Positions 1,082 through 33,887 of a stretch of DNA of 37,444 nucleotides are shown here, in pieces. The notes beneath the pieces were generated by a model, which was not told where the DNA came from, searched no databases, and was given only the letters and a program-made list of their open reading frames with translations. Source of the stretch: an uncultured Acetobacteraceae bacterium (lineage in GTDB: Bacteria; Pseudomonadota; Alphaproteobacteria; Acetobacterales; Acetobacteraceae); the NCBI GenBank assembly GCA_903895595.1, contig CAITUP010000051.1:1-37444 (forward strand). Direction: 5' to 3'. Each line of letters opens with the position of its first letter. The stretch's first letter is position 1. The position numbers and the translations under genes are program-made.

Positions 1082-1851
1082 ACCGCCGTCCGACCGCCGT
1101 CGACGAACAGGTTCGTGCCACTGATGTACCGCCCGGCGTCGGAGCACAGGAGCAACGCCGCCCCGGCCAGATCGTCCGGCGTGCCGAGCCGCCCCGCGGG
1201 GATTCGGGCGGCCAGAGCCTCCCCTTCCGTCTTCATCTGCTCCCGGTTGCGGGCGGTCAGGATCGCACCGGGCGCGAGGTTGTTCACCGTCACCCCCTGG
1301 CCGCCGAACTGGCGGGCAAGGTTCAGCGTCCAGTTCAACTGCGCGGCTTTGGTGCCGGCGTAGACCAGCATCGAGGGATGCGGCCGTTCCTGCTGCACGC
1401 TACCGATCGTGACCACCCTGCCCCACCCGCGTTCCGCCATCGCCGGCACCAGTGTTTGCAGCAGTTCCAGCGTGGTGCGCAGGTTCACCGCGATCTGGCG
1501 GTCGAAGTGTTCGCGGGTGATGGCGCGATAATCCTCCACCAGTTCGATGGAAGCGTTCAGCACCAGAATATCGACCGGGGACCAGGCAGTGACGGCGGCC
1601 GCGAGCGACAGGCCGGCATCGTCGACGGCGAAATCCTGCCCGAATGCCTCCGCCTGTCCACCCGCGTCGCGGATTTCCGCCACCACGGTGGCGGCATCGC
1701 GGGCTTCCTCGGCGGTGCCGGCATGATGCACCGCGACGCGCGCGCCAGCCCCGGCCAGGATCAGCGCGATGGCGCGGCCGATTTCGCGGCGGGCGCCGGT
1801 CACCAAGGCGGTGCGGCCGTTCAGGCGAAACGCGGCGAAGGGGTCGGTCAT
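1078..1851 (-). CDS. Short-chain dehydrogenase/reductase (FabG-like SDR)
   Basis: 257 aa, the usual classical SDR length. The cofactor motif TGARREIG lies near residues 18-25. LNASIE stands where NNAG is usual, and the catalytic Ser plus YAGTK (YxxxK) follow. The C-terminus has the common GTNLFVDGG motif. It should be an NAD(P)-dependent oxidoreductase acting on an alcohol/ketone pair, probably cytoplasmic and tetrameric. The ATG at 1851 overlaps the stop of the DUF3445 gene as ATGA, and its own stop overlaps the next start as GTGA, so the genes are probably translationally coupled. The substrate is unknown. The context with an N-demethylase-like heme protein and a hydrolase suggests small-molecule oxidation. 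Confidence 0.88.
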   Translation of the reverse strand: MTDPFAAFRLNGRTALVTGARREIGRAIALILAGAGARVAVHHAGTAEEARDAATVVAEIRDAGGQAEAFGQDFAVDDAGLSLAAAVTAWSPVDILVLNASIELVEDYRAITREHFDRQIAVNLRTTLELLQTLVPAMAERGWGRVVTIGSVQQERPHPSMLVYAGTKAAQLNWTLNLARQFGGQGVTVNNLAPGAILTARNREQMKTEGEALAARIPAGRLGTPDDLAGAALLLCSDAGRYISGTNLFVDGGRTAV

Positions 1852-2681
1852 GATGCTTGTCCTTGTCGGTCGAGCCACGCCAGCAGCGGGGCCTGGATGG
1901 CGGGAAGGCTCTTGTAGCGCACGATCGCATCCGGCAAGGCACGCACCGCCGCCGCCACGCGCGCGGCCGAGATGGCAAAACGACGCAGCGGGTAAACATG
2001 CACGCGGATGCCGAACAGGACGGCGCCGGAGACCGGAAGAAGCCGCAGCGTCTGGCGCTCGACCCGCACGAACAGGGTATCTCCAGCATTGTCCGCGGTG
2101 ATGGCGTCGTTACGCTCGCTGCGCCATTTGCCTTCGGGCTGAAACAGCGCGGAATCGTCGAGGATCGACCAGTTCAACCGCATCGCGATCCGGTCCGGTT
2201 TCAAATGCCGCATGAAACGATCCACCGGGTTGGCGAGCCGCTCGGCGTAGACCGGGACCGGACCGTGGACCTCCGCCAAGGGCTTGCCGATCTTATCGCG
2301 CAAGCGCCAGCGGCTGGGGAAACAGACCACGCCAGCGGTGAACACGGCGTCCTGGATCAGGCACATATCCTCCTGCACCAGACGGGCAGCCTGTTCCAAC
2401 GGATCGGCGTCGGTCTCGGTCAGCAGGTCCGGATGGTGGGTGCGGAGGTTGGCCAGCACCATCGCGAGCGCTTCCCGCCGAGCGGCTTCCGATCCAGGGG
2501 TCAGGGCGACGACATCGGCGTGGCGTTCGGTCAGCAGGCGGGACTTTTCTGCGGTTTCCGTGGGGTAGAGCGCATCGACCTCGAACCACGCGGCCTCGGG
2601 CACGATGGTCAGGCCCATGGCCATCCGGTAGGGGCCGGGCTCGATCGGATCGTGCAGGACCTCCGGCGGAAACGGCCGCAC
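1848..2681 (-). CDS. DUF3445 / heme-dependent oxidative N-demethylase-like protein
   Basis: 277 aa. The opening EPGPYRMAMGL followed by an acidic 'WFEVDALYPTETAEKSRLL' stretch is characteristic of the DUF3445 family. Members include the alpha subunit of heme-dependent oxidative N-demethylase (HODM), which removes methyl groups from amines such as dimethylamine using a PAS-like heme domain. The central part (FPSRWRLRDKIGKPLAEVHGPVP, interrupted here only for reading) and the RLNWSILDD / LFVRVERQTL segments also fit. The start is a GTG only 4 bp after the hydrolase stop, and I see no strong Shine-Dalgarno. The flavin and iron-sulfur partner subunits of true HODM are absent nearby, so the real substrate and electron donor are open. 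Confidence 0.75.
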   Translation of the reverse strand: MRPFPPEVLHDPIEPGPYRMAMGLTIVPEAAWFEVDALYPTETAEKSRLLTERHADVVALTPGSEAARREALAMVLANLRTHHPDLLTETDADPLEQAARLVQEDMCLIQDAVFTAGVVCFPSRWRLRDKIGKPLAEVHGPVPVYAERLANPVDRFMRHLKPDRIAMRLNWSILDDSALFQPEGKWRSERNDAITADNAGDTLFVRVERQTLRLLPVSGAVLFGIRVHVYPLRRFAISAARVAAAVRALPDAIVRYKSLPAIQAPLLAWLDRQGQAS

Positions 2682-2684
2682 GGC

Positions 2685-3539
2685 TCAACCCAACAGGAAC
2701 GCTCGGACCGCCGCGATCTGGGCAGGGTCCATCAGCGCGGGGGCGTGGCCGGTGTCGGGGACGGTCAAGGTCTGAGCGCCGGAAGCCTCCATGCGCGCCA
2801 ACGTGTCCGGCAGCAGCAGGTCGCTGACCTCTCCCCGGATAGCGAGCACGGGCACGCGGATGCGGTCCCATAGGGGCCACAAATCGACCGCGACGGGCGT
2901 ATGATCGCGCAGCGGGGCGGCGATGTCGGGGTCGTAATGCATGGTGAACAAGCCGTCCGGCAGGCGGCGGGCGGAATGCGCCGCCAGATGCGCCCATTGC
3001 GCATCCGTCAACTGCCCGAAGGGTGCATGGATCAGCCGCAGATGTCGCTCGATCCCCTCCACGTCGGGGAACCGCTCCATCAGCTTCGAGGCCGAGGACG
3101 CCACCATGTAGTCGCGAATGCGCGTCAGGGCGTCGGCCGGGATGAGGGGGCCGACATCGTTCAGCACCAGCTTCGTCAACGGCGCGTTCGGCGTGGCGGC
3201 GGCAACCATGCCGCAAATGCCGCCGAGCGATGTGCCGATCCACGCGACATCCCGCCCGATCGCCGCCAGCAGGTGCCCGAGCGCGGTGACGTAGTGCTGG
3301 GCTTGATAGAGCATGGGGTCGGGAAGCCAGTCCGATGCGCCTCGCCCCGGCAGGTCGGGGCAGATCACCCGGAAGCTGTCGGACAGGGCTTCGCCGAGAG
3401 CGTCGAAATCGCGGCCGTTGCGGGTCAGGCCGTGCACGCACAGGACGACCGGCGCGTTCGGATCGCCCCATTCCGTGTAGGCCATGCGGTGGAAGCCGCC
3501 GGACAGAAGATACAGAACGCTATGGTGAGACGGTTGCAT
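2685..3539 (-). CDS. Alpha/beta hydrolase
   Basis: 284 aa, a complete alpha/beta hydrolase fold. It has the oxyanion motif VHGLT near residue 36, the nucleophile elbow GTSLGG with Ser104, a likely acid Asp240 in GEVSDLLL, and His265 in DTGHAPAL. There is no signal peptide. It is the first gene of the minus-strand operon ending at 380. The ATG at 3539 follows an AAGGGG-like ribosome binding site. It is divergent from the mmsA-type gene, the two starts lying 86 bp apart. A TTGACG hexamer sits in that gap on the minus strand, but no good -10 follows at normal spacing. The family covers esterases, C-C bond hydrolases and haloperoxidase-like enzymes. The acyl or ester substrate is not predictable. 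Confidence 0.85.
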
Positions 3540-5858: not shown

Positions 5859-7007
5859 GTGTCCGCATTCGCTTTTCCGCCCCCGCCGCCCTCCCCGGAA
5901 GCCGAGGCGCTCCGCCAGGAAGTCCGCGACTTCCTGAAAACCGCTTTGGCCACCCGCAAACCGGTGGAGCGGGCGGAGTCCTGGACCGGCCTCGACCCCG
6001 AATTCAGCAAGGCCATGGGCGCGCGCGGCTGGATCGGCATGACCTGGCCCAAGCAATACGGCGGACACGAACGATCGGCCCTCGAACGCTACGTGGTGCT
6101 GGAAGAAATGCTCGCCGCCGGGGCGCCGGTCGGACTGCACTGGATCGCCGACCGACAATCCGGCCCGCTTATTCTCCGGGTCGGGACCGAGGAGCAACGG
6201 CAGACCATCCTGCCTCGGATTGCCGCCGGGGAGGCTTATGTCTGCATCGGCATGTCGGAACCGGACATCGGATCCGACCTCGCATCCGTTCGCACGCGGG
6301 CGGCGAAGGTGCAGGGCGGCTATGTCGTCAACGGGACCAAGGTCTGGACCAGTTTCGCGCATTTGTCGCAGTACATGATCCTGTTCTGCCGCACGGGATC
6401 GTCCGAGGAACGGCACGGCGGCGTCAGCCAGTTGCTGGTCTCGCTGCACGACAATCCCGGCATCGCCGTGCGCCCGATCCTCGCGATGACAGGCGAGCAC
6501 CATTTCAATGAGGTCGTCTTCCAGGACGCCTTCATTCCCGACACCGCGCTGCTGGGCAAAGAGGGCGACGGGTGGAACCAGGTCACCCGGGAACTGGCCT
6601 TCGAACGTTCCGGCCCCGAGCGGTTTCTGTCGTCGTTTCAGGTTCTGGTGGAGCTTTGCCGAGCGCTGGGGTCAAGTCCGAGCGATGCGGGGCTGGTGGC
6701 GCTGGGGCGGTTGTCGTCGCATTTGATCGTGCTGCGGCGGTTGTCGCGGTCGGTCGCGGGGATGCTGCAACAAGGCGAGAACCCGGCGTTGCAGGCCGCA
6801 TTGGTCAAAGACCTCGGCGCATTGGTGGAGCAGGAAATTCCCGAAATTGCCCGTCAGTTGGTCGATGCGGAACCGGATGCGAAATCCACCCGCGATTTCT
6901 CCGCCGTGCTGGCCCACACGATGATGCATGCGCCGTCGTTTTCGTTGCGCGGCGGCACGCGGGAAATCCTGCGCGGCATCATCGCCCGCGGGTTGGGGCT
7001 TCGTTAA
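5859..7007 (+). CDS. Acyl-CoA dehydrogenase
   Basis: 382 aa from the GTG at 5859, the normal size for the family. It shows the N-terminal helical domain, the FAD/substrate region (CIGMSEPDIGSD, then VNGTKVWTSFAH), and a C-terminal RGGTREILRGIIARGLG. FAD-dependent alpha,beta-dehydrogenation of an acyl-CoA with electron transfer to ETF is expected in the cytoplasm. The GTG is chosen because AGGA lies about 10 nt upstream and the homologous fold begins there. The frame is open back to 5703, but that part runs through the brnT promoter region. The expected general-base glutamate may be in LAFERSGPERF, which I cannot place with certainty. The next gene starts 21 bp downstream, so the two form an operon. 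Confidence 0.88.
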   Translation: MSAFAFPPPPPSPEAEALRQEVRDFLKTALATRKPVERAESWTGLDPEFSKAMGARGWIGMTWPKQYGGHERSALERYVVLEEMLAAGAPVGLHWIADRQSGPLILRVGTEEQRQTILPRIAAGEAYVCIGMSEPDIGSDLASVRTRAAKVQGGYVVNGTKVWTSFAHLSQYMILFCRTGSSEERHGGVSQLLVSLHDNPGIAVRPILAMTGEHHFNEVVFQDAFIPDTALLGKEGDGWNQVTRELAFERSGPERFLSSFQVLVELCRALGSSPSDAGLVALGRLSSHLIVLRRLSRSVAGMLQQGENPALQAALVKDLGALVEQEIPEIARQLVDAEPDAKSTRDFSAVLAHTMMHAPSFSLRGGTREILRGIIARGLGLR

Positions 7008-7028
7008 CTCCTTCAAGGAAACAACATT

Positions 7029-7829
7029 ATGACCGATAAAGTCCTCTACGAGCAGGATGGCGCCATCGTCACCATCACGCTGAACGACCCCGGCATGCGC
7101 AACCCCATCTCCGAAATGGATATGGTGGATGGCATCGTCGACGCGTTGGACCGGCTGAACGCCGACACCTCCGTCCGTGTCGCGATCCTGACCGGCGCCG
7201 GCAGTGCCTTCAGCTCGGGGGGCGATCTGCGCAAGATGCGGGACGATTTCGAGGTTCGGCAGCAACAGCCGCAGCTGACCACGCGCTATTACAAATACGG
7301 CATCCAGCGCATCCCGATGGCGTTCGAGAAGCTGGACGTTCCCATCATCGCCGCCGTCAACGGCCCGGCGATCGGGGCGGGGCTGGACCTCGCCTGCATG
7401 TGCGACATGCGCATCGCCGCCGAGACCGCTCGGTTTGCCGAGAGCTTTGTTAAAGTCGGCATCGTGCCGGGCGATGGCGGGGCCTGGCTATTGCCGCGGG
7501 TCGTTGGGTTCTCCAAAGCCGCGGAAATGGCGTTCACCGGCGACATGCTGAACGCGGCGGAGGCTCTGGCCTGCGGGCTGGTGTCCCGCGTCGTGCCGGA
7601 CGCCGAGCTGCTGGATGCCGCGCGGGCGCTCGCGCAACGGGTGGCGGTGAATCCGCCGCAAGCCGTGCGCATGGCCAAGCGCCTGCTGCTGGAAGGCCGT
7701 TCGGTGAAGCTGGACACGCTGCTGGAGATGTCGGCCGCGATGCAGGCCCTGGCACATGCGACGGGGGACCACCGGGAGGCTGTAAACGCGTTCCTGGAGA
7801 AGCGGAAGCCGGTGTTCCGGGGGGAGTGA
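7029..7829 (+). CDS. Enoyl-CoA hydratase/isomerase family protein
   Basis: 266 aa, a crotonase-fold protein. The two oxyanion-hole segments are SAFSSGGDLRKM and GPAIGAGLDLACMCD. Downstream ESFVKVGIVPGDGGAWLLPR holds one of the positions where hydratases carry a glutamate, while the canonical second one is less clear. The enzyme may therefore be a hydratase, isomerase or other crotonase. The ATG follows AAGGAA with about 9 nt spacing. It lies 21 bp after the acyl-CoA dehydrogenase gene, which suggests consecutive beta-oxidation-like steps on the same acyl-CoA. The substrate is unknown. Confidence 0.88.
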   Translation: MTDKVLYEQDGAIVTITLNDPGMRNPISEMDMVDGIVDALDRLNADTSVRVAILTGAGSAFSSGGDLRKMRDDFEVRQQQPQLTTRYYKYGIQRIPMAFEKLDVPIIAAVNGPAIGAGLDLACMCDMRIAAETARFAESFVKVGIVPGDGGAWLLPRVVGFSKAAEMAFTGDMLNAAEALACGLVSRVVPDAELLDAARALAQRVAVNPPQAVRMAKRLLLEGRSVKLDTLLEMSAAMQALAHATGDHREAVNAFLEKRKPVFRGE

Positions 7830-15674: not shown

Positions 15675-16280
15675 TCACGCCGCGTTTGGGCGATCCTCCA
15701 GGTGTTCGACCCGGATATTCAACTGGCGCAGCATATGCGTCATTTTAGAGAGCTGTTCAGTGATGCTTTCCATCTCGACGCGGGTCGATTTGAGGAGGCG
15801 TTCAGCCCGTTCGGCGATATCGATTTTCATGTCGTCTTCTTCCCGCTGCATGGTCATGCGGTCTTGCAGGCGGTCGATCCGGTCCATGATTTCCGCGCGG
15901 GTTTGGATGAGTTCCGCCTGTTGAGCCGCGAACCCATCGAGGGTCTCGATGCGGAATTCGCTCAATTCAAAACGAACCTTTCCGAGCTCCGACTGGAGAT
16001 CGTCAACCTCACCCTGCATGAGTCCGAACTCGGTTCGGAAGGCCCCGAACTCACTTTGGAAGGCATCCATTCTCGCGCTCAGACTGGCGATTTGGCTGCC
16101 TAGGTCCAAACGCACGTCGCCGATCTGGCCGGTCAGGTCCGTACGCACGGCCTCGATCTGGCCGGTCAGGTCCGAACGCACAGCCTCGATCTGGCCGGTC
16201 AGGTCCGAACGCAACTCGCGCATCCCAACCTGGGTTTCCACGACAATGGCAAGAATGCGTTCCAAAACGGTATCGCTCAC
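15675..16280 (-). CDS. Coiled-coil protein with tandem 11-residue repeats
   Basis: 201 aa with no globular family recognised. Residues about 22-56 hold three to four near-identical 11-residue units of the form SDLTGQIEAVR, and the rest is a continuous heptad/hendecad helix rich in Glu, Arg, Met and Gln. The protein is likely a long alpha-helical rod. There is no signal peptide or membrane segment. The GTG at 16278-16280 has a GAGAGGG ribosome binding site. Similar repeat-rod proteins can be structural, or act in chemotaxis-like or phage-tail contexts; neither is supported by neighbours here. The repeat DNA is nearly perfect, so the number of copies may vary between strains. Confidence 0.7.
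   Translation of the reverse strand: MSDTVLERILAIVVETQVGMRELRSDLTGQIEAVRSDLTGQIEAVRTDLTGQIGDVRLDLGSQIASLSARMDAFQSEFGAFRTEFGLMQGEVDDLQSELGKVRFELSEFRIETLDGFAAQQAELIQTRAEIMDRIDRLQDRMTMQREEDDMKIDIAERAERLLKSTRVEMESITEQLSKMTHMLRQLNIRVEHLEDRPNAA
16122..16220 (-). repeat. 33-bp tandem repeats inside the coiled-coil gene
   Basis: Units start at 16122, 16155 and 16188 (period 33 bp). The first two differ at only 2 positions, and the third is identical to the second for 27 bases before it diverges. A weaker fourth unit lies just below 16122. Each unit encodes one 11-residue coiled-coil repeat, so unit gain or loss would keep the reading frame. The near identity at synonymous positions suggests recent duplication. 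Confidence 0.85.
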
Positions 16281-18746: not shown

Positions 18747-19976
18747 TTACTCGGTTTCGTCGTTCGCCGGCGGTGGTTCCGCGAGGCCGGCATCTTCCTC
18801 GTAATTCGTCGCCATCGTTTCTTCGACGATGGCGACGCCCTCCCCGGTCAGGCGCTGCGAGTCCCACTGGGTGATCCAGGATTTGATGTATTGCCGCATC
18901 GTCCGGGACGCAGTGCGTTCGCCCTGCAACAGCGCGGGCGCGGGCCAATCGTAGGCAGCCTCGTAGATATCGCGCAGTTTCAGGCAGGTGCGCGCCAAAT
19001 CGTCGTTACCCGGGCTGCGCAAACGATGCCGACCCGTGGTGGCCGCGATGTGGCGCATCGCTTCGCGGGCGGCCTGCGCCTCCTGCAAGCGGCCTTTCAG
19101 TTGCAGACGGTCAGGCAGTTTTTCCTCATCCTGCCGCTGGTCGATCACCGCGCTGACGAAATCGTCGGTGATCGCATAGACGGCGGCAATGCCTGGAAAC
19201 ACACCGGCACCCGGCAAACCCAGCCAAGTACTCAACCACGCATAGGCCAGCGCACGCTGCAACGGGGTGTAGCGGCCGATCAGTTCCATCTCATCCAGCA
19301 ACACGCACCATCCGGCGAAACCGGCAGCGTGAAACAGCCGGGACGCGAAACGGATGCGCTGTTCCGCCAGCTCCCCCGGCGGCGGCATTTTCAGATCGAA
19401 CCGCCGCGACGCCCCGGCGGCCGACAACGCCGGCCGGATCGCCGCTGCCGTCATCCGCCCGCCCGCGAGGAACCGTTCGCATTTGCGGATCGTTTCCGGC
19501 AGCGTCGACGGCCGCCGGATCAAAAACAACACAGCCGCGAAGATCGGCGCGAACCCGGCCATCGGATCGCGCACCGCCTGTTCCAGCAGATCGGCCTTTT
19601 CGACCGAATCCCGCATGATCGACAACGCCGCCGCCAGCGGATCGTCGGTGCGGTTGGGCAGGCGCGCGCGCGAAATCGCGGCCTCGAACACGCGCGCGGG
19701 GTCGGCCAGCGGGGTTTCCTTGCTGATCACGACGCGGCTGACGACGAAATTCTGCCCCAGCGCGACCTCAGCCAAATAACCGAGGAAATGCGATTTCCCG
19801 GCCCCAAACCCGCCCGCAATCCCCATCCCAGGACGAGGCGTATCCCAGACCGAACCCAACAGCGCATCGAACGCCTGCTCGATCGCCGTTTCCTCCGACC
19901 CCATCAACCGAATCGCCGCTCGGTTCGGCACCCCAGCCCGCAGGGCTTCGATCGCTGTGCGTGCCTGCAAATTCAT
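18747..19976 (-). CDS. BrxC/BrxD-like (DUF2791) P-loop ATPase
   Basis: 409 aa. Walker A GGFGAGKS (Lys61, Ser62) is followed by FVVSRVVISKETPLADP. Walker B is VLLDEMELIG (Asp228, Glu229), continuing as RYTPLQRALAYAWL, with a sensor-like AVYAITDDF near residue 268. From memory these stretches are the hallmark of the BREX ATPase family BrxD (DUF2791). The C-terminus is acidic. The protein is probably a cytoplasmic, DNA- or complex-remodelling ATPase. It overlaps the preceding 321-aa gene by ATGA and is the third gene of a compact set. No BREX methylase, PglZ or Lon-like gene is near. Its defence role is therefore inferred only from family relatives. Confidence 0.75.
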   Translation of the reverse strand: MNLQARTAIEALRAGVPNRAAIRLMGSEETAIEQAFDALLGSVWDTPRPGMGIAGGFGAGKSHFLGYLAEVALGQNFVVSRVVISKETPLADPARVFEAAISRARLPNRTDDPLAAALSIMRDSVEKADLLEQAVRDPMAGFAPIFAAVLFLIRRPSTLPETIRKCERFLAGGRMTAAAIRPALSAAGASRRFDLKMPPPGELAEQRIRFASRLFHAAGFAGWCVLLDEMELIGRYTPLQRALAYAWLSTWLGLPGAGVFPGIAAVYAITDDFVSAVIDQRQDEEKLPDRLQLKGRLQEAQAAREAMRHIAATTGRHRLRSPGNDDLARTCLKLRDIYEAAYDWPAPALLQGERTASRTMRQYIKSWITQWDSQRLTGEGVAIVEETMATNYEEDAGLAEPPPANDETE

Positions 19977-20938
19977 GGTGTCACCGTGACCAGAGGCGCC
20001 AGCGGATTCTGCCGGTCGCCGGGGCGGACGTCGGGCCAGATGCGCATCTGCAACGCCTTGTAATTGTCCAGGGTCCGTTTCGGCTCACCCGAAATCAGCG
20101 CCTGATCGGTCAGCACCAGAACGAACAGACCGGGCAAATGCTCGATATCGTCGATCAGCTCCCGCAGCACCTCGTAAAGGTCCATCACCGTCGCGGGGCT
20201 GTAGCGGGCAGTCCCGTCGGTCTTCGGCGTGGTGCGCAAAGCGTGCCGAATATCCAACGTCAGCAGCAGGCCGGGCGTGCCGGCCTTACGCAGCCAGTGA
20301 CAAAGAGAGATCAACATGGCCCGAGCGTTGGTGCGGCCGATGCGCGTGGCGATATCGAACATGCGCAGCACCGTGGCACCGATTTTCTCCCCGTACAGCC
20401 AGCGCAGCACAGGCGATTCCTCGGCCACGACGTCCGCGTCCGGCTCTAGACGCCCAACGCAAAGATGCATCATCGCGGTACGGAAATCCTGGGCGAGATG
20501 CGGGTCGTTCCACAAATCCTGGCTCAGCCATTGATCCCGGTTGCGTGCCGCGAGGTTCGGGGCGATCCCAAAATGTTCCGCCAGTTCCGCCATCGCCATC
20601 GGCTCCCCCGGTTTCGGCCAGGGGTATCCATTGCGGTCGAACAGCGATTCAACATAGGACTGCGCGAGCTTGTCCCAGGGCAGCCAGCGCGCGAGGGCGA
20701 AGAACACGTCCTGCAACATATGCAGCCGCGTCTGGCTTGCGTCCGCGTGTGCCGCCAGCAGCCCGTAACGATGCGCCATATCGGTGACGCCGCGGGCAAT
20801 GGCGGGGCCGGTTTCTTCCCCGGCAACGACGAATTTGACCGCGCCGCCGCCGGCCGGCAGATATTCCGTGAAATATTCGCGCTCGATCGTGCTCAGCCAG
20901 TCCCCGATCGGCAAACCCTGCTGTTCGATCGTTTCCAT
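19973..20938 (-). CDS. ATPase-like protein without Walker A, partner of the BrxD-like ATPase
   Basis: 321 aa. Residues 20-80 read like the start of a P-loop protein, but the loop position is GGGAVKFVVAGEETG with no GK(S/T). A second hydrophobic strand, TPGLLLTLDIRHAL (about 222-234), looks like Walker B, but the catalytic glutamate is an isoleucine. A third strand, LFVLVLTDQALI, resembles the sensor strand of the neighbour. I infer a nucleotide-binding-fold relative that cannot hydrolyse ATP, possibly arisen by duplication of the next gene's ancestor. It starts 4 bp after the 261-aa gene and overlaps the ATPase gene by 4 bp, so the three are probably made in fixed ratio and work as a complex. 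Confidence 0.6.
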   Translation of the reverse strand: METIEQQGLPIGDWLSTIEREYFTEYLPAGGGAVKFVVAGEETGPAIARGVTDMAHRYGLLAAHADASQTRLHMLQDVFFALARWLPWDKLAQSYVESLFDRNGYPWPKPGEPMAMAELAEHFGIAPNLAARNRDQWLSQDLWNDPHLAQDFRTAMMHLCVGRLEPDADVVAEESPVLRWLYGEKIGATVLRMFDIATRIGRTNARAMLISLCHWLRKAGTPGLLLTLDIRHALRTTPKTDGTARYSPATVMDLYEVLRELIDDIEHLPGLFVLVLTDQALISGEPKRTLDNYKALQMRIWPDVRPGDRQNPLAPLVTVTP

Positions 20939-20942
20939 GGCA

Positions 20943-21728
20943 TCAATCCATCGCGAAGCGAATGGCGTAAAAATCGTGCTGCGCCCCGGTTTCGTCGAAC
21001 GCCGAAAGGCGCTTATCGCCCTTTGTGCCGGTCGAACCGCCGAGTTCGAACCGGTGGCCGCGGCCGGTGCGGGAATCCGGCAACCGATTCAGGCGCAGCA
21101 TGTCGCAGAGGAATTCCTCCACCGGGTAATCGGCGGCTGCCTGCGGCCAAAGCGTCAGCAGCGCATGCAGATCGGCCAATGCGATCAGCGGCCCCTCCTC
21201 GGTTTTGGCCGGCTGCCAGTGCGGTGCCAAGATGGCGTACGCTCGCAGCAGCCGGTCCAGGAACGACCGGGCGTTGAACCGGTTGGGGCGCGACTGCAAT
21301 TTCTTCAGTTCGCCGATCAGCACGCTGGGTCGCAGGCGTTTTTCCAACTTGTTGCCGAGCCGCACGCCTTGGGTGCGGGGTTCCAGACGGACAACGACGG
21401 GGAAGGCGGTGATGCGCCCGTCGCGCTGGATCAGCCGCACATCGGCGGCTTTTGCCGCGGCGGCGAGTTCCTCCACGTAGGCGCCACTGGCGAAGGAGGC
21501 CGCCACATCCAGTGCCGGCGGCTCGACGGTCGCGACCGCGTCGGCCAACTTCTCGGCATCCTGGCGCATGGCGGCGACCGCGGCGGGTACGCTGGCAATG
21601 GTGCCCTCTTGCGCGGCCTTGCGGAGCCGGCGCGCGGATTTCAGCGCAGCGGTGGCCTGGCGTTCCAGGATGGCGAGCTGTTCCTCCCACGCGGAGAGTG
21701 TTGCTTCCAATGTTGGGGAATCTGTCAT
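20943..21728 (-). CDS. Hypothetical helical protein, first gene of the ATPase set
   Basis: 261 aa, family not recognised. Residues about 5-70 form a predicted coiled coil (EEQLAILERQATAALKSARR). A middle domain contains LRPSVLIGELKKLQSRPNRF, and the C-terminus has a compact mixed domain (EEFLCDMLRLNRLPDS, ending HDFYAIRF). There is no signal peptide, membrane segment or nuclease motif. The ATG at 21728 lies 31 bp after the MFS stop on the same strand. A near -10 sequence (TACTCT) just before it might allow a leaderless transcript. Position and coupling argue for a structural, adaptor or DNA-recognition subunit of the ATPase complex. Confidence 0.6.
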   Translation of the reverse strand: MTDSPTLEATLSAWEEQLAILERQATAALKSARRLRKAAQEGTIASVPAAVAAMRQDAEKLADAVATVEPPALDVAASFASGAYVEELAAAAKAADVRLIQRDGRITAFPVVVRLEPRTQGVRLGNKLEKRLRPSVLIGELKKLQSRPNRFNARSFLDRLLRAYAILAPHWQPAKTEEGPLIALADLHALLTLWPQAAADYPVEEFLCDMLRLNRLPDSRTGRGHRFELGGSTGTKGDKRLSAFDETGAQHDFYAIRFAMD

Positions 21729-29354: not shown

Positions 29355-32300
29355 ATGACTCGCAAGCCCAGAAAATCGGCCAAAAAGCCGGCCGCCGGTT
29401 CGACGGAGGCCGCCCCCATCCCAGTCGCCGAACCCGCGATGGAAACGCCGTCGCTCGAGCCTGCCCCCATCATCCGGATCGAGATCGATCCTGGGGTGTC
29501 CGGCGGATTCCTGCATGGACGCTTCGACGTTCATATCCGTGGCCGGGTCGTCTCTCAGTCCCCGGCGGAGGAAATCACCCTGTTACTGGACGGCGAAGCT
29601 GTCTGCGCCGCCCAGTACGGCGATCCCGACAAAGCCGCCACAGCGACCCTGCCCGACGGAACCCACGCCAAGCAGCGCGCCTTTCATTTCACGCTCGCGT
29701 ATCTGAACAATCGCGCCGACGGGCCCTGCCATGCGGTTATCTCCGCCCGTACCGCCGACGGTCAGGTGTACGAGGAGCCTTTCGAACTCGCCATCGATCC
29801 GCAGGGCCCGGAACCGGTCGTGTTGGTCGCCGGCCCGACCCAAAGTGCGGCGACTGGACCGGGCGTGCGCCCCCCGGTGGTCGTCTACGTCGAACGCGCG
29901 ACGTTGGACGACGACGGCCAACTGCAGCTACAGGGCTGGTCGATCGCGCTGACGACTTTGGTCACGGTGCAGGTCTTCGCCGATGAGGAACGGATCTCGG
30001 CCGCGCGCCTCGGCGGTGCCCGCGACGACGTCGCATCGGTCTACCCCGCCTACCCGAATGCTCGGACCTCCGGCTTCAGCCTGACGGTGCCGTTGGGAGA
30101 AAACCTGCGGCACGCCCGCGCCATCCGGGCGCAGGCGATCGGCATGTTCGGATTTTCCCATGAAGTGACCGTCCCGCTGGAGCGTATCCCCAGCCGAGCG
30201 CCGCGGCCCGCGTCGGCGCAACCGGCGTTCAATCCCGCGCCGGCGCCGCAAAGCTCCGGCTTTGCGCTGTCTATGCAGCAACCGGTTTACCAAATCACGG
30301 CGGACTTCCGGATCGCGAGCGACCCGTTGGGCGGCGGCCTGTTCGCAAGCGGGCTCGTCGCGTCGCCACCGCCGCCACCGGAACCTGCCAAGCAGGAAGT
30401 ACATTTGTATTGCGACACCGTCTCATTGACCGAGGACGGTTACCTGATGGCCGCTGGTTGGGCGCTGAGCGCCGCCGAAGTGGCGGCGATCTATATCTAT
30501 TTGGATGGCACACTGGTCGGGGAGGCCGAATACGGCAGTGAGCGGCACGACGTCGGCCGGCAATTCGCGGATATTCCCGGTGCGGACCGTTCCGGCTTCC
30601 TGTTCGACCGACGCGTGATCGCACTGGCGGATGCCGACCATAGTGTCCGCGTGCTGGTGCGCGCGAGGGATGGTGAGGAAAAATCGGAAGACCTGCCGAT
30701 CGCCACGATCCTGCCGCCCGTGCTCGCAGCACCCGTGACCGCCGCTCCCGCCCCCCTACCCGACTCTCCGGCGCCCGACCAATTCACCTTCCAGATCGAC
30801 AGCCCGCAAATCGGCGACGACGCCATCGCCGTCTCGACGGTCACCGGCCGCCTGACGATCGAAGGCTGGGCGCTGGCCCGATCCGGCGTCGCCGGCATAG
30901 ACGTGTTTTTGGACGACCAGAGGCTGGGCGCCGCGCATTACGGCCTCGCGCGCCAGGACGTCGGTGCGGCGTTCCCGGAATGGACCGATTCGCTGCGCAG
31001 CGGCTACGCGTTCCATTGTCCTCCGCGCAGCTTGCGCGACGGCAGCCACGAAGTTCGCCTGGTCATTCGCGCGAAAAACGGCGACGAACTGCGGCGCGTC
31101 TTCTCCATTCACGTGCGAAAATCGGAAGACGAGGATACGACCGGGTCGATCCGGCGGCGCACAAGGCGTGTCGAATCCGATCTGATGGACTCGCTGCGGA
31201 CCGATCTGGCGGCGGGTGGCATACAACCTGCTTTCGGTTTATTTTTGCGGCAGGACGGACCGGTGGACAGGCTCGCCCTTGGCCGCACGCTGAACGCGTT
31301 GTTGTCCCAATCCTACCAAGACTGGCATTTGACGATCCTGTTGGCCGATGCCGGCGCGCGCGACGATGCGGCCGAAGCGCTCGCGGATTACGGCGACGAT
31401 TTGGCCGGCCGGGTATCGATGATCGACCCCGCCGACGACGCGTGGCTACAGCCATTCGCCACCGGTGCATCGTTGACCGCCCTGCTATGCCCCGGCGACG
31501 AGCTGGGCGCCGACGCGCTGGCGGAATTCGCCATGGCCTGCCTGCAACGTCCGAACGCGGACCTGATCTACGCCGACGAATCCCGCATCAGCCCGGCCAG
31601 CCACGAGCGGGAACCGTTCTACAAGCCCGATTTCTCGCCGGACCTGCTGCTGTCCACGAATTATATCGGTCGGCCCTGGGTGGTACGTCCGGCTTTGATG
31701 GAAACTCTGGCGGCGACGCCGGCCGATCTGCTTGCGAACGGCGAGTACGATCTGGTGCTGCGCGCGACCGAAGCCGCCGGCCTCGTTTACCATATCCCGA
31801 AGCTGTTGGCCGCCCGGGGCGCGGCCGACCTCGATTCCGCGGAAACCAGTGCAGCGGCGCTGCAACGGGCCGTGGCGCGCAGCCACTTTAAGGCGGAAAT
31901 CCTGCCGGCCGCGGTCGATGGCACATGGCGGGTGAAGCGAGCCGTGCCCATTCAAGGCAAGGTGTCGATCATCATCCCGACCTGCGCGGCGCATGGCTAT
32001 ATCGAAACCTGCGTGGCGACGCTGCGCAGCAAAACCGCCTACACCAACTACGAAATCATCGTCATCGACAATATTCCCGACAGCCAGATGGCCTGGAAAA
32101 TCTGGCTTCAGCAGCATGCCGACAAAATCGTCGACATGCCCAGCGCGTTCAACTGGTCGCACTTCAACAACACGGCTGTCGATGAGGCCGACGGCGAGTT
32201 CCTGCTGTTCCTGAACGACGACATCGAAATCTGGCAGGAAGACTGGCTGGACACGATGATGGAGCACGCGCAACGGCCGGAGGTCGGTCTGGTCGGGCCG

Positions 32301-33887
32301 CAATTGCTGTATCCCGACCGCAAGGTGCAGCACGCCGGCATGTTCCTGGCGACCAGCGGGATCGGCCGCCACGCGTTCCGTTTCGCCGCCGCCGACGAAC
32401 CCGGTTATTTCGGCCTCGCGCTGACCCAGCGCAACGTCATGGCCGTGACCGGCGCCTGCATGCTGGTCAGGCGCGACGTGTTCGACAGCCTCGGCCGCTT
32501 CGACGAGGCGCATGAGATCGTCAACAACGATCTGGATTTCTGCCTGCGGGTGCACAAGGCCGGACTGCTGACGGTGTTCACGCCGTACGCGACGCTGATC
32601 CATCACGAACTCGCCAGCCGCGAGCGGATGAAGGACGTCTACGACCTCACGCATTTCAACAATCACTGGAAAACCCAGTTCGCGGCGGGGGATCCCTATT
32701 TCAACCCCAATCTGTCGCGGCACGCCGACGACTACCGGCCCGACGACGAGCCGACCGAGCTGGTGCATGCCGGCCATCCGCTGTTCCGAACGGAGGATAT
32801 CCAGCGCATTCTGGTGGTAAAACTGGATCATATCGGCGATTTCGTCACCGCGATTCCGGCGATCCGCCGGCTGAAACATCTGTTTCCGCACGCATCCATC
32901 ACGGTCCTGGCCGGTCCGGCCTCGCGCGCCTTCGCCGCACTGGAACCGGCCATCGACGAATTCATCGACTTCGCCTTCTTCCACGCCCGCTCCCAGATCG
33001 GGGAACGCGAACTGACGGCGGACGATTACGCCGAACTGGCGGACCAGCTGAAACCGCGCCGGTTCGATCTGGCGGTGGATTTGCGCAAGCATCTGTCCAC
33101 CCGCGACGTGCTGCGCCACACCGGTGCGCGTTTCCTCGCCGGGTTCGATTACATGGGCCAATTTCCGTTCCTGGACATCGCCCTGGAATGGGACGGCGAC
33201 AAAATCCCGCAACGCAAACGCGCCCATGTGGTGGACGATCTGCTGTCGCTGGTCGGTGCGATCGGCGAAGCGATGGAAGCCGACCGCATGCTGATCCAAG
33301 CGTCTCCGGTCCCCCTTCCCCTGGATGAATTCCCCGAAGCCGTCGCGGCTTTGTTCGACAAGCCTGTGGTCGCAATCCATCCCGGTGCCGGCAATATCAA
33401 CAAACAATGGCCGGAGGAGCATTTCTCGGCGCTGATCGACCTGTTGATCGAGAAAAACGACGTCAACATTCTGCTGGTCGGCGGACCGGACGAGGTGGAA
33501 ATCGCCGACGCGCTGATGGAAGCCGTTCTACACCCGGAAGCGGTGGCCTCGATGGCCGGCCAGACGTCTTTGGTCATGCTGCCGCGGGTGCTGGCTGCGT
33601 GCGTGTTGTATATCGGCAACGACAGCGGCCCCAAGCACATCGCCGCCGCCATGGGACTGCCGACGATCGGCATTCATTCCGGCGTGGTGGACGCAACGGA
33701 ATGGGGCCCCGTCGGACGGCGCGCGGTCGCGATGCAACGCAACATGACGTGCAGCCCCTGCTATCTGGCCGTCGCGGCCGATTGCCCGCGCGGACTGGCC
33801 TGCCTGAATTTGCTGGAACCCGGCGACGTGCACCGTCTGGCGGAAACGATGCTGGCGCGCCCGTTCGGCGAAACGGGAACATGCTGA
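29355..33887 (+). CDS. Giant glycosyltransferase: beta-sandwich repeats, two GT2 domains, GT9 heptosyltransferase domain
   Basis: 1510 aa. Residues about 45-600 hold four related beta-sandwich-like units, marked by repeated GW(A/S) and YG...DV...SGF words (near 184, 357 and 495). About 620-860 is a degenerate GT2 domain (ADLIYADESRI, then DFSPDLLLSTNYIG). About 869-1130 is an intact GT2 (KVSIIIPTCAAHGYIETC, FLNDDIEI as the metal motif, NNDLDFCLRVHKAGL). About 1150-1505 is a GT9 domain like ADP-heptose:LPS heptosyltransferase (ILVVKLDHIGDFVTAIPAIRRL, HPGAGNINKQWP, NDSGPKHIAAAMGLP). There is no signal peptide or membrane segment, so it probably acts at the cytoplasmic face. Its stop overlaps cysQ by TGATG. 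ADP-heptose from HldE is a likely donor for the last domain. Sugar and acceptor are unknown. Confidence 0.85.
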   Translation: MTRKPRKSAKKPAAGSTEAAPIPVAEPAMETPSLEPAPIIRIEIDPGVSGGFLHGRFDVHIRGRVVSQSPAEEITLLLDGEAVCAAQYGDPDKAATATLPDGTHAKQRAFHFTLAYLNNRADGPCHAVISARTADGQVYEEPFELAIDPQGPEPVVLVAGPTQSAATGPGVRPPVVVYVERATLDDDGQLQLQGWSIALTTLVTVQVFADEERISAARLGGARDDVASVYPAYPNARTSGFSLTVPLGENLRHARAIRAQAIGMFGFSHEVTVPLERIPSRAPRPASAQPAFNPAPAPQSSGFALSMQQPVYQITADFRIASDPLGGGLFASGLVASPPPPPEPAKQEVHLYCDTVSLTEDGYLMAAGWALSAAEVAAIYIYLDGTLVGEAEYGSERHDVGRQFADIPGADRSGFLFDRRVIALADADHSVRVLVRARDGEEKSEDLPIATILPPVLAAPVTAAPAPLPDSPAPDQFTFQIDSPQIGDDAIAVSTVTGRLTIEGWALARSGVAGIDVFLDDQRLGAAHYGLARQDVGAAFPEWTDSLRSGYAFHCPPRSLRDGSHEVRLVIRAKNGDELRRVFSIHVRKSEDEDTTGSIRRRTRRVESDLMDSLRTDLAAGGIQPAFGLFLRQDGPVDRLALGRTLNALLSQSYQDWHLTILLADAGARDDAAEALADYGDDLAGRVSMIDPADDAWLQPFATGASLTALLCPGDELGADALAEFAMACLQRPNADLIYADESRISPASHEREPFYKPDFSPDLLLSTNYIGRPWVVRPALMETLAATPADLLANGEYDLVLRATEAAGLVYHIPKLLAARGAADLDSAETSAAALQRAVARSHFKAEILPAAVDGTWRVKRAVPIQGKVSIIIPTCAAHGYIETCVATLRSKTAYTNYEIIVIDNIPDSQMAWKIWLQQHADKIVDMPSAFNWSHFNNTAVDEADGEFLLFLNDDIEIWQEDWLDTMMEHAQRPEVGLVGPQLLYPDRKVQHAGMFLATSGIGRHAFRFAAADEPGYFGLALTQRNVMAVTGACMLVRRDVFDSLGRFDEAHEIVNNDLDFCLRVHKAGLLTVFTPYATLIHHELASRERMKDVYDLTHFNNHWKTQFAAGDPYFNPNLSRHADDYRPDDEPTELVHAGHPLFRTEDIQRILVVKLDHIGDFVTAIPAIRRLKHLFPHASITVLAGPASRAFAALEPAIDEFIDFAFFHARSQIGERELTADDYAELADQLKPRRFDLAVDLRKHLSTRDVLRHTGARFLAGFDYMGQFPFLDIALEWDGDKIPQRKRAHVVDDLLSLVGAIGEAMEADRMLIQASPVPLPLDEFPEAVAALFDKPVVAIHPGAGNINKQWPEEHFSALIDLLIEKNDVNILLVGGPDEVEIADALMEAVLHPEAVASMAGQTSLVMLPRVLAACVLYIGNDSGPKHIAAAMGLPTIGIHSGVVDATEWGPVGRRAVAMQRNMTCSPCYLAVAADCPRGLACLNLLEPGDVHRLAETMLARPFGETGTC

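Follow-up and report, generated by a model that had tools for sequence, protein, structure and literature searches.

What do a catalytic ATPase, a relative of it without the catalytic motifs, and a third protein do together? The question is raised by three adjacent genes, called A, B and C here, in a 37,444-nucleotide stretch of DNA from an uncultured Acetobacteraceae bacterium (GenBank assembly GCA_903895595.1, contig CAITUP010000051.1), which is referred to as the window. A preliminary description of this DNA had proposed that the linked active/inactive ATPase pair and the third conserved protein make up one system, and the present analysis agrees, since the partners are kept together in the relatives. 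We propose that A-B-C is the core of an accessory cassette, A-B-C-(E)-D, in which an ORC/Cdc6-like loader formed by B and C would, together with A, put an SNF2 motor (D) on DNA and act against invaders; we consider this proposal evenly poised between right and wrong. All three genes are read from the minus strand; A and B are 4 bp apart, B and C overlap by 4 bp, and the coordinates of the open reading frames (ORFs) confirm the sizes and spacing given earlier. The features are as follows.

20943..21728, minus strand: gene A, 261 amino acids (aa), from the ORF list
19973..20938, minus strand: gene B, 321 aa, member of the BrxC/BrxD family that lacks Walker A and the catalytic Glu
18747..19976, minus strand: gene C, 409 aa, ATPase of the BrxC/BrxD family, motifs intact
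20831..20851, minus strand: signature GG-x-A-V-K-F of B (residues 30-36) at strand 1, from alignment conservation
20807..20824, minus strand: residues 39-44 of B (AGEETG), probable site of the lost P-loop, from AlphaFold2 secondary structure and column variability
19791..19814, minus strand: Walker A of C, GGFGAGKS, followed by H (G-x-GKSH in 81 of 81 rows)
19281..19304, minus strand: Walker B of C, VLLDEMEL (all 81 rows share D, E and the second E)

Proteins A, B and C and their linkage

The relatives come from a scan of species genomes that used the alignment of C together with two peptide patterns; the best 80 of 207 were kept as L-numbered loci. These include near-copies and some genomes that also occur in the G-numbered samples; the taxon labels are those of the submitters, and many of the loci are bins. 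Rows were kept for the motif counts when they covered at least about 300 positions of C (81 rows), 240 of B (75 rows) or 220 of A (73 rows), the window included. The species-genome scan with B alone confirmed no relative.

Among the kept loci with at least 2.6 kb of upstream sequence, A and B lie upstream of C on the same strand and in the order A-B-C in 68 of 69, a few of them in broken frames; the exception, L166, has pieces of A and C only. The homologues are thus not scattered without the same partners, a pattern that the preliminary description had considered. The order recurs far beyond chance, and the core is found under 11 phylum labels in these loci, all kept from the C-seeded scan. 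When 200 genomes of the order were searched with B alone, strong relatives were found in five (window included), along with one weak match, and the other four carry A-B-C in this order by blast and gene calls, one of them split over two contigs. A is present in 29 of the 30 genomes of the family chosen for strong B matches, the single miss having B at a contig start, while the five B-less genomes of the same genus gave no A (0/5).

The Walker A (GGFGAGKS) and Walker B (VLLDEMEL) motifs of C are intact, as previously described, and GKSH and the three acidic residues of Walker B are invariant across the alignment. C passes the Pfam BrxC_BrxD profile (PF10923, cut-off 22.2 bits) with 63.8 bits (1.9e-17), and B passes it with 33.1 bits (3.7e-8); these two are the only PF10923 matches in the window genome. 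Both fall far below the NCBIfam BrxD cut-off of 350 bits (46.9 for C and 32.3 for B). In PADLOC, C matches BrxD (5.9e-12) and, more weakly, SngB (3.7e-6).

B had been described as a Walker-dead relative, with GGGAVKFVVAGEETG and LLLTLDIRHA at the sites of the Walker motifs. The lack of GKS and of a catalytic Glu, and the passing of the BrxC_BrxD profile, bear out this relationship, but the dead P-loop probably lies slightly later, at residues 39-44. GK[ST] of Walker A is found in 0 of the 75 aligned rows and the catalytic Glu likewise in 0 of 75; the Asp closing the Walker-B-equivalent strand is invariant and is followed by Ile, Leu, Asn, Ala or Val, never by Glu. B has its own conserved residues. 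In the signature GG-x-A-V-K/R-F, 74 of 75 rows have GG and 74 of 75 have K or R (the other row is gapped), and the arginines at 201, 254 and 294 (aligned-segment numbering) are invariant in 75 of 75. In the AlphaFold2 model from a nine-row alignment, with a predicted local distance difference test score (pLDDT) of 89.6, strand 1 covers residues 33-38 (AVKFVV) and the next helix residues 43-57. The lost P-loop is therefore probably the variable AGEETG stretch directly after the conserved signature, as judged from the model. Because Walker A is lost in every row and yet the protein's own residues are invariant, the alignment identifies B as a conserved non-catalytic subunit and not a decaying copy. 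The comparison of B with C themselves is weaker: a profile-profile alignment (hhalign) gave probability 26.5 and E 7e-4 over 114 columns, and direct blastp gave no match (E 2.4 at best). On the question raised earlier of whether B is a P-loop ATPase relative at all, the Pfam profile answers in favour, though the model has no significant fold match.

A has nothing above the cut-off in Pfam (best 0.054) and no match in PADLOC, NCBIfam or PHROGs. Its AlphaFold2 model (nine-row alignment, pLDDT 86) is laid out as an N-terminal helical hairpin, a beta stretch in the middle, and helices and strands at the C-terminus. The earlier label of coiled-coil protein suits the hairpin (residues 7-67 of the model) but not the remainder of A. 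A fold search against the PDB and viral structures gave no match at E<=0.001, and the sequence profile of A against the PDB gave helical-bundle matches and nothing better. A is basic, with an isoelectric point (pI) of 9.0 in the window and a median of 9.3 over the 73 rows, and B and C are acidic (median pI 6.2 and 6.3).

At five loci (L149, L151, L162, L167 and L174), a single reading frame holds C together with all or most of B, and no D match was found there. L162 has two such fusions in tandem. The five loci carry Nitrospirota or Nitrospinota labels, and the next gene downstream resembles a membrane histidine kinase by eye; it is followed by a response-regulator-like gene in L149, L151 and L162, and L167 and L174 end earlier.

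Motor D, protein E and the reduced form in the window

In many relatives, C is directly followed by D, a compact SNF2 protein that matches Pfam SNF2-rel_dom at 1e-38 to 8e-46 in the four that were scanned. Of the 63 loci that have 2.5 kb or more of downstream sequence, 40 carry D. It was scored at more than 60 bits within 1.5 kb and then at more than 100 bits within 2 kb; both rules gave 40/63, with L131 and L178 exchanged. The frequency is 9/26 in the Acetobacteraceae-type group (L100-L128 and L130-L133, 33 loci, not all of which carry that label) and 31/37 elsewhere. On the C tree, a quick tree with Shimodaira-Hasegawa-like approximate likelihood ratio test (SH-aLRT) support only, D changes state at least 9 times over 69 scored rows. 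Another protein, E, of about 188 aa lies between C and D as a separate ORF in 24 loci and fused to D in 5 (weak matches); the one E scanned, from L135, gave no family match.

The place of D may be taken by another helicase. L168 has a ResIII/DEAD-type superfamily 2 (SF2) helicase there (L168:11257-12885), which scores 149.5 bits with a DNA phosphorothioation restriction model whose cut-off is 600. By eye, L169 also has an SF2 helicase in this position (L169:11564-12868). In L178, a 344-aa protein (L178:10302-11336) that looks by eye like the nuclease portion at the N-terminus of type I restriction subunits stands between C and D; it has no match in NCBIfam, Pfam or PADLOC.

D gave no match in the window (E 1e-4). 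In the window genome, the best match was 328 bits in a 1461-aa frame, and the matches there are larger SNF2 proteins. Among the 30 genomes of the family with strong B matches, a D-grade match (>500 bits; 525-758 observed) was found in 13, in 12 of them on the contig with B or a piece of B; some of the other 17 have C near a contig end. Five control genomes of the same genus without B gave at most 326 bits. Judged by gene content, the window carries a reduced form of the cassette. The earlier idea of a minimal set does not hold in the sense of a complete one, since outside the Acetobacteraceae-type group 31/37 loci add the SNF2 motor and many also add E.

A trio without its motor could be the non-functional remnant of a larger cassette. 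D is absent from the window, G068/L012 has only a short D-like piece after C (a D-grade gene is on a different G068 contig), and the relatives L115, L122 and L132 have broken reading frames. On the other hand, the window has all three genes intact, and D-less A-B-C is seen in 17 of the 26 Acetobacteraceae-type loci with room. The ratio of nonsynonymous to synonymous substitution rates (dN/dS) between the window and two D-less relatives (L100 and L109) was 0.15-0.24 for A, B and C, a rough value as the synonymous divergence is near 1. The low ratio indicates that A, B and C still do something without D, and we regard the remnant explanation as quite improbable.

The nature of D also suggests a transcription or chromatin remodeller of the RapA/SNF2 kind with B-C as regulators. 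In its favour, D is an SNF2 motor that scores second-best in NCBIfam with an Snf2 family involved in pilus regulation (246 bits, cut-off 1100), and the histidine-kinase-like gene follows all five B-C fusions. However, B and C belong to the BrxC/BrxD family, and the best PADLOC matches of D are ZorD and DpdE, helicases of defence systems, as would be expected of that library. This explanation seems to us very improbable.

Distribution, surroundings and the proposed role

The cassette is patchily distributed. A strong B match (>=373 bits) was found in 30 of 397 genomes of the family and in 4 of 13 of the genus, and 18 further genomes of the family have a weak or fragmentary one. A search of 385 genomes of the class with C gave matches in five; three of these represent the cassette (the window's own genome, G561 and, as a fragment, G210), and the other two matches are weak. 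On the C tree, phylum labels change 19 times over 11 groups, as compared with a minimum of 10 and a shuffled mean of 36.7; the labels are clustered, yet there are close pairs with different labels. Part of this mixing may come from bins and mislabelled records. The scattered presence in the family and genus and the mixed labels suggest that the cassette is accessory.

In the window, an alcohol dehydrogenase-like ORF follows C and a major facilitator superfamily (MFS) transporter-like ORF precedes A, by eye. They were considered as parts of the system and dropped, as the downstream genes differ in most of 16 loci. When 12 same-genus genomes were compared with 8.7 kb of the window, no contig matched both the dehydrogenase block (query 1769-3143) and the MFS transporter-like gene (6166-7303 of the query), whether the genome had A-B-C or not; in G1069, another right-flank gene is on the dehydrogenase contig, about 100 kb off. 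Downstream genes are shared within the close pairs L117/L123 and L131/L133, and L109 has the upstream MFS and SufE-like genes of the window. Elsewhere in the window, a 201-aa ORF (15675-16280) with short internal repeats (DLTGQIEAVR-like) is unconnected with the cassette, and a 1482-aa ORF (29439-33887) lies close to the right end.

Neighbours were scanned at 46 loci (L152, a near-copy, omitted), where 105 ORFs of 150-1500 aa were covered, with 25 of 79 families listed. The 24 largest flank clusters listed are by eye mostly common families such as ABC ATPases, short-chain dehydrogenases and histidine kinases. Defence genes adjoin several copies outside the Acetobacteraceae-type group. L141 has a DUF1156 methylase and a phospholipase D (PLD)-helicase upstream of A; Cas56g and Cas7g genes adjoin the cassette in L165; a type I restriction enzyme follows D in L170; and a ZorD/DpdE-like helicase is near the L159 copy. 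In L138 the cassette lies between Orf5/HEC-06 and the pair ZacA-ZacB; ZacA and ZacB come within about 50 bp after D on the same strand and are followed by a 1097-aa ORF (L138:14013-20468), possibly a composite defence operon.

From these observations, the following mechanism is proposed. C would be the catalytic ORC/Cdc6-like AAA+ subunit and would form a mixed oligomer with B, a ring or an arc, in which B is structural and its invariant arginines probably complete the ATP site of C. The basic A would be an adaptor that holds DNA and places B-C on it. Depending on its ATP state, C would then gate D, the SNF2 motor, or load it onto DNA, and foreign or aberrant DNA would thereby be remodelled or blocked. 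The loader idea is proposed by analogy with BrxD-BrxHI, as given in the BREX survey (PMC12839542). As no D was found in the window genome, A-B-C there would act alone or with another cellular motor. The cassette is probably used against foreign DNA, and this purpose plausibly fits the patchy, moving distribution and the defence neighbours.

Several results weigh against this proposal. D is absent from 23 of the 63 loci, so the loader model can explain the cassette only in part. The family is also uncommon, with a single strong B match, the window's own, in a sample of 398 genomes across the phylum; the other 14 matches do not exceed 51 bits. Searches of phage and plasmid records with C gave no match, and a scan of viral contigs by two short peptide patterns gave none that was confirmed. 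The fold evidence is also thin on both ATPases, as the B model gave no significant match in the PDB (best RdrA, E 7e-3, template modelling score 0.40), the B sequence profile gave nothing credible there, and the C profile gave weak P-loop matches only (BrxC, E 0.025). The defence neighbours of L141, L138, L165 and L170 were found by eye and then confirmed. Among 89 proteins beside Acetobacteraceae-type copies (PADLOC, 1e-20), the defence-specific matches were pAgo/Aga only, one member each; the others, mad3 and RTasPolA, were judged generic. The defence role suggested in the preliminary description is plausible but backed indirectly: a few relatives adjoin defence genes, while the ORFs around the window copy itself look metabolic.

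An alternative is a DNA maintenance module, for repair, replication restart or nucleoid remodelling, which is often lost and has no part in defence. Many Acetobacteraceae-type copies are amid metabolic or housekeeping-like ORFs (by eye, L131 and L133 lie between murA-like and hisG-like genes), the genes are under purifying selection, and the phage, plasmid and viral searches fit as well. Such a module would not be expected to give no B match in 9 of 13 same-genus genomes, however, nor to have neighbours that differ between most loci, phylum labels that are mixed and defence genes beside several copies. We consider this explanation unlikely, if still a serious one.

Phylum mixing and varied surroundings would also suit an accessory of transposition or recombination, similar to the TnsC/IstB-like AAA+ regulators. 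By eye, tyrosine-recombinase-like and MobC-like ORFs are near the L043 copy, and a tyrosine-recombinase-like flank cluster occurs in 4 of 80 loci (L106, L121 and the near-copies L148 and L152). However, this is the sole recombinase-like cluster seen among the 24 largest flank clusters listed, and the L106 gene reads as xerC by eye; we give this explanation hardly any credence.

Comparison with known systems

A 2012 survey of Ter systems reportedly linked TerB with ATPases and helicases. Shango consists of the TerB protein SngA, the BrxD-like ATPase SngB and the DEAD/DEAH helicase SngC (PMC10250203). The cassette is similar in having a further protein, a BrxD-like ATPase (PADLOC SngB matches C, though more weakly than BrxD does) and a helicase. 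It differs in that neither Pfam nor PADLOC gives a TerB match for A (no search for TerB was made in the rest of the genome), in the dead ATPase B, and in the motor, which is SNF2 in the relatives and missing from the window. No SngC-type DEAD/DEAH helicase is seen by eye beside C in the window, and the D of the relatives is SNF2 except for the ResIII/DEAD-type protein of L168. Shango was ruled out on the lack of a TerB match in A and of an SngC-type helicase beside C.

In type 2 bacteriophage exclusion (BREX), BrxD is assigned to the ORC/Cdc6 AAA+ ATPases and proposed as the loader of BrxHI, which is classed as Ski2-like (PMC12839542). The linking of an ORC/Cdc6-type ATPase with an SF2 helicase is common to both systems. 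In contrast, C is below the BrxD cut-off, the dead B and A are extra, and the motor of the cassette is SNF2 whereas BrxHI is Ski2-like. PglZ (PF08665) gave no match in the window genome, while 2 of 14 control genomes were positive, and no large BrxC/PglY ATPase was found there, as PF10923 matches only B and C. Type 2 BREX was ruled out on these grounds, together with the sub-cut-off BrxD scores, and the earlier statement that the locus is not BREX is supported: the genome has no PglZ match and no BrxC/BrxD protein beyond B and C.

BrxB of BREX is an inactive ORC/STAND ATPase kept beside the active BrxC (PMC12839542), and PDB entry 9zn5 contains a molecule named BrxC-BrxB. The pairing of an inactive ATPase with an active one is thus shared with this BrxB/iSTAND arrangement, but B profiles with BrxC/BrxD, and neither PglZ nor BrxC is found here. 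RdrA of RADAR is the best, non-significant, fold match of B (E 7e-3); B has no RdrA sequence match in Pfam, PADLOC, NCBIfam or the PDB profile search.

The literature searched gave no description of the cassette, nor of BrxD with an SNF2 helicase and TerB, nor of SNF2 with DUF2791, and the part of the BREX survey available does not describe it (PMC12839542). A broader claim would be that this is a widespread and undescribed anti-invader or DNA-surveillance system, with an obligate mixed ORC/Cdc6-like ring of which one subunit is dead in every relative examined, interchangeable SF2 motors, no DNA-modification gene of its own for self-marking, and a motor-less three-gene form in many Acetobacteraceae; we put this forward tentatively, leaning slightly to the doubtful side. 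If true, a cassette under 11 phylum labels is unnamed in the literature searched, possibly because A and E match no family and C passes as an ordinary 'BrxD'. The active/dead pair would then be a compact bacterial model for dead subunits in ORC-like loaders, and the proposed helicase-loader role of BrxD would become testable with small proteins. The joining of a BrxD-like ATPase to a motor is already known from the systems above; what is new here is the fixed catalytic/dead pair, the proteins A and E, and the SNF2 motor.

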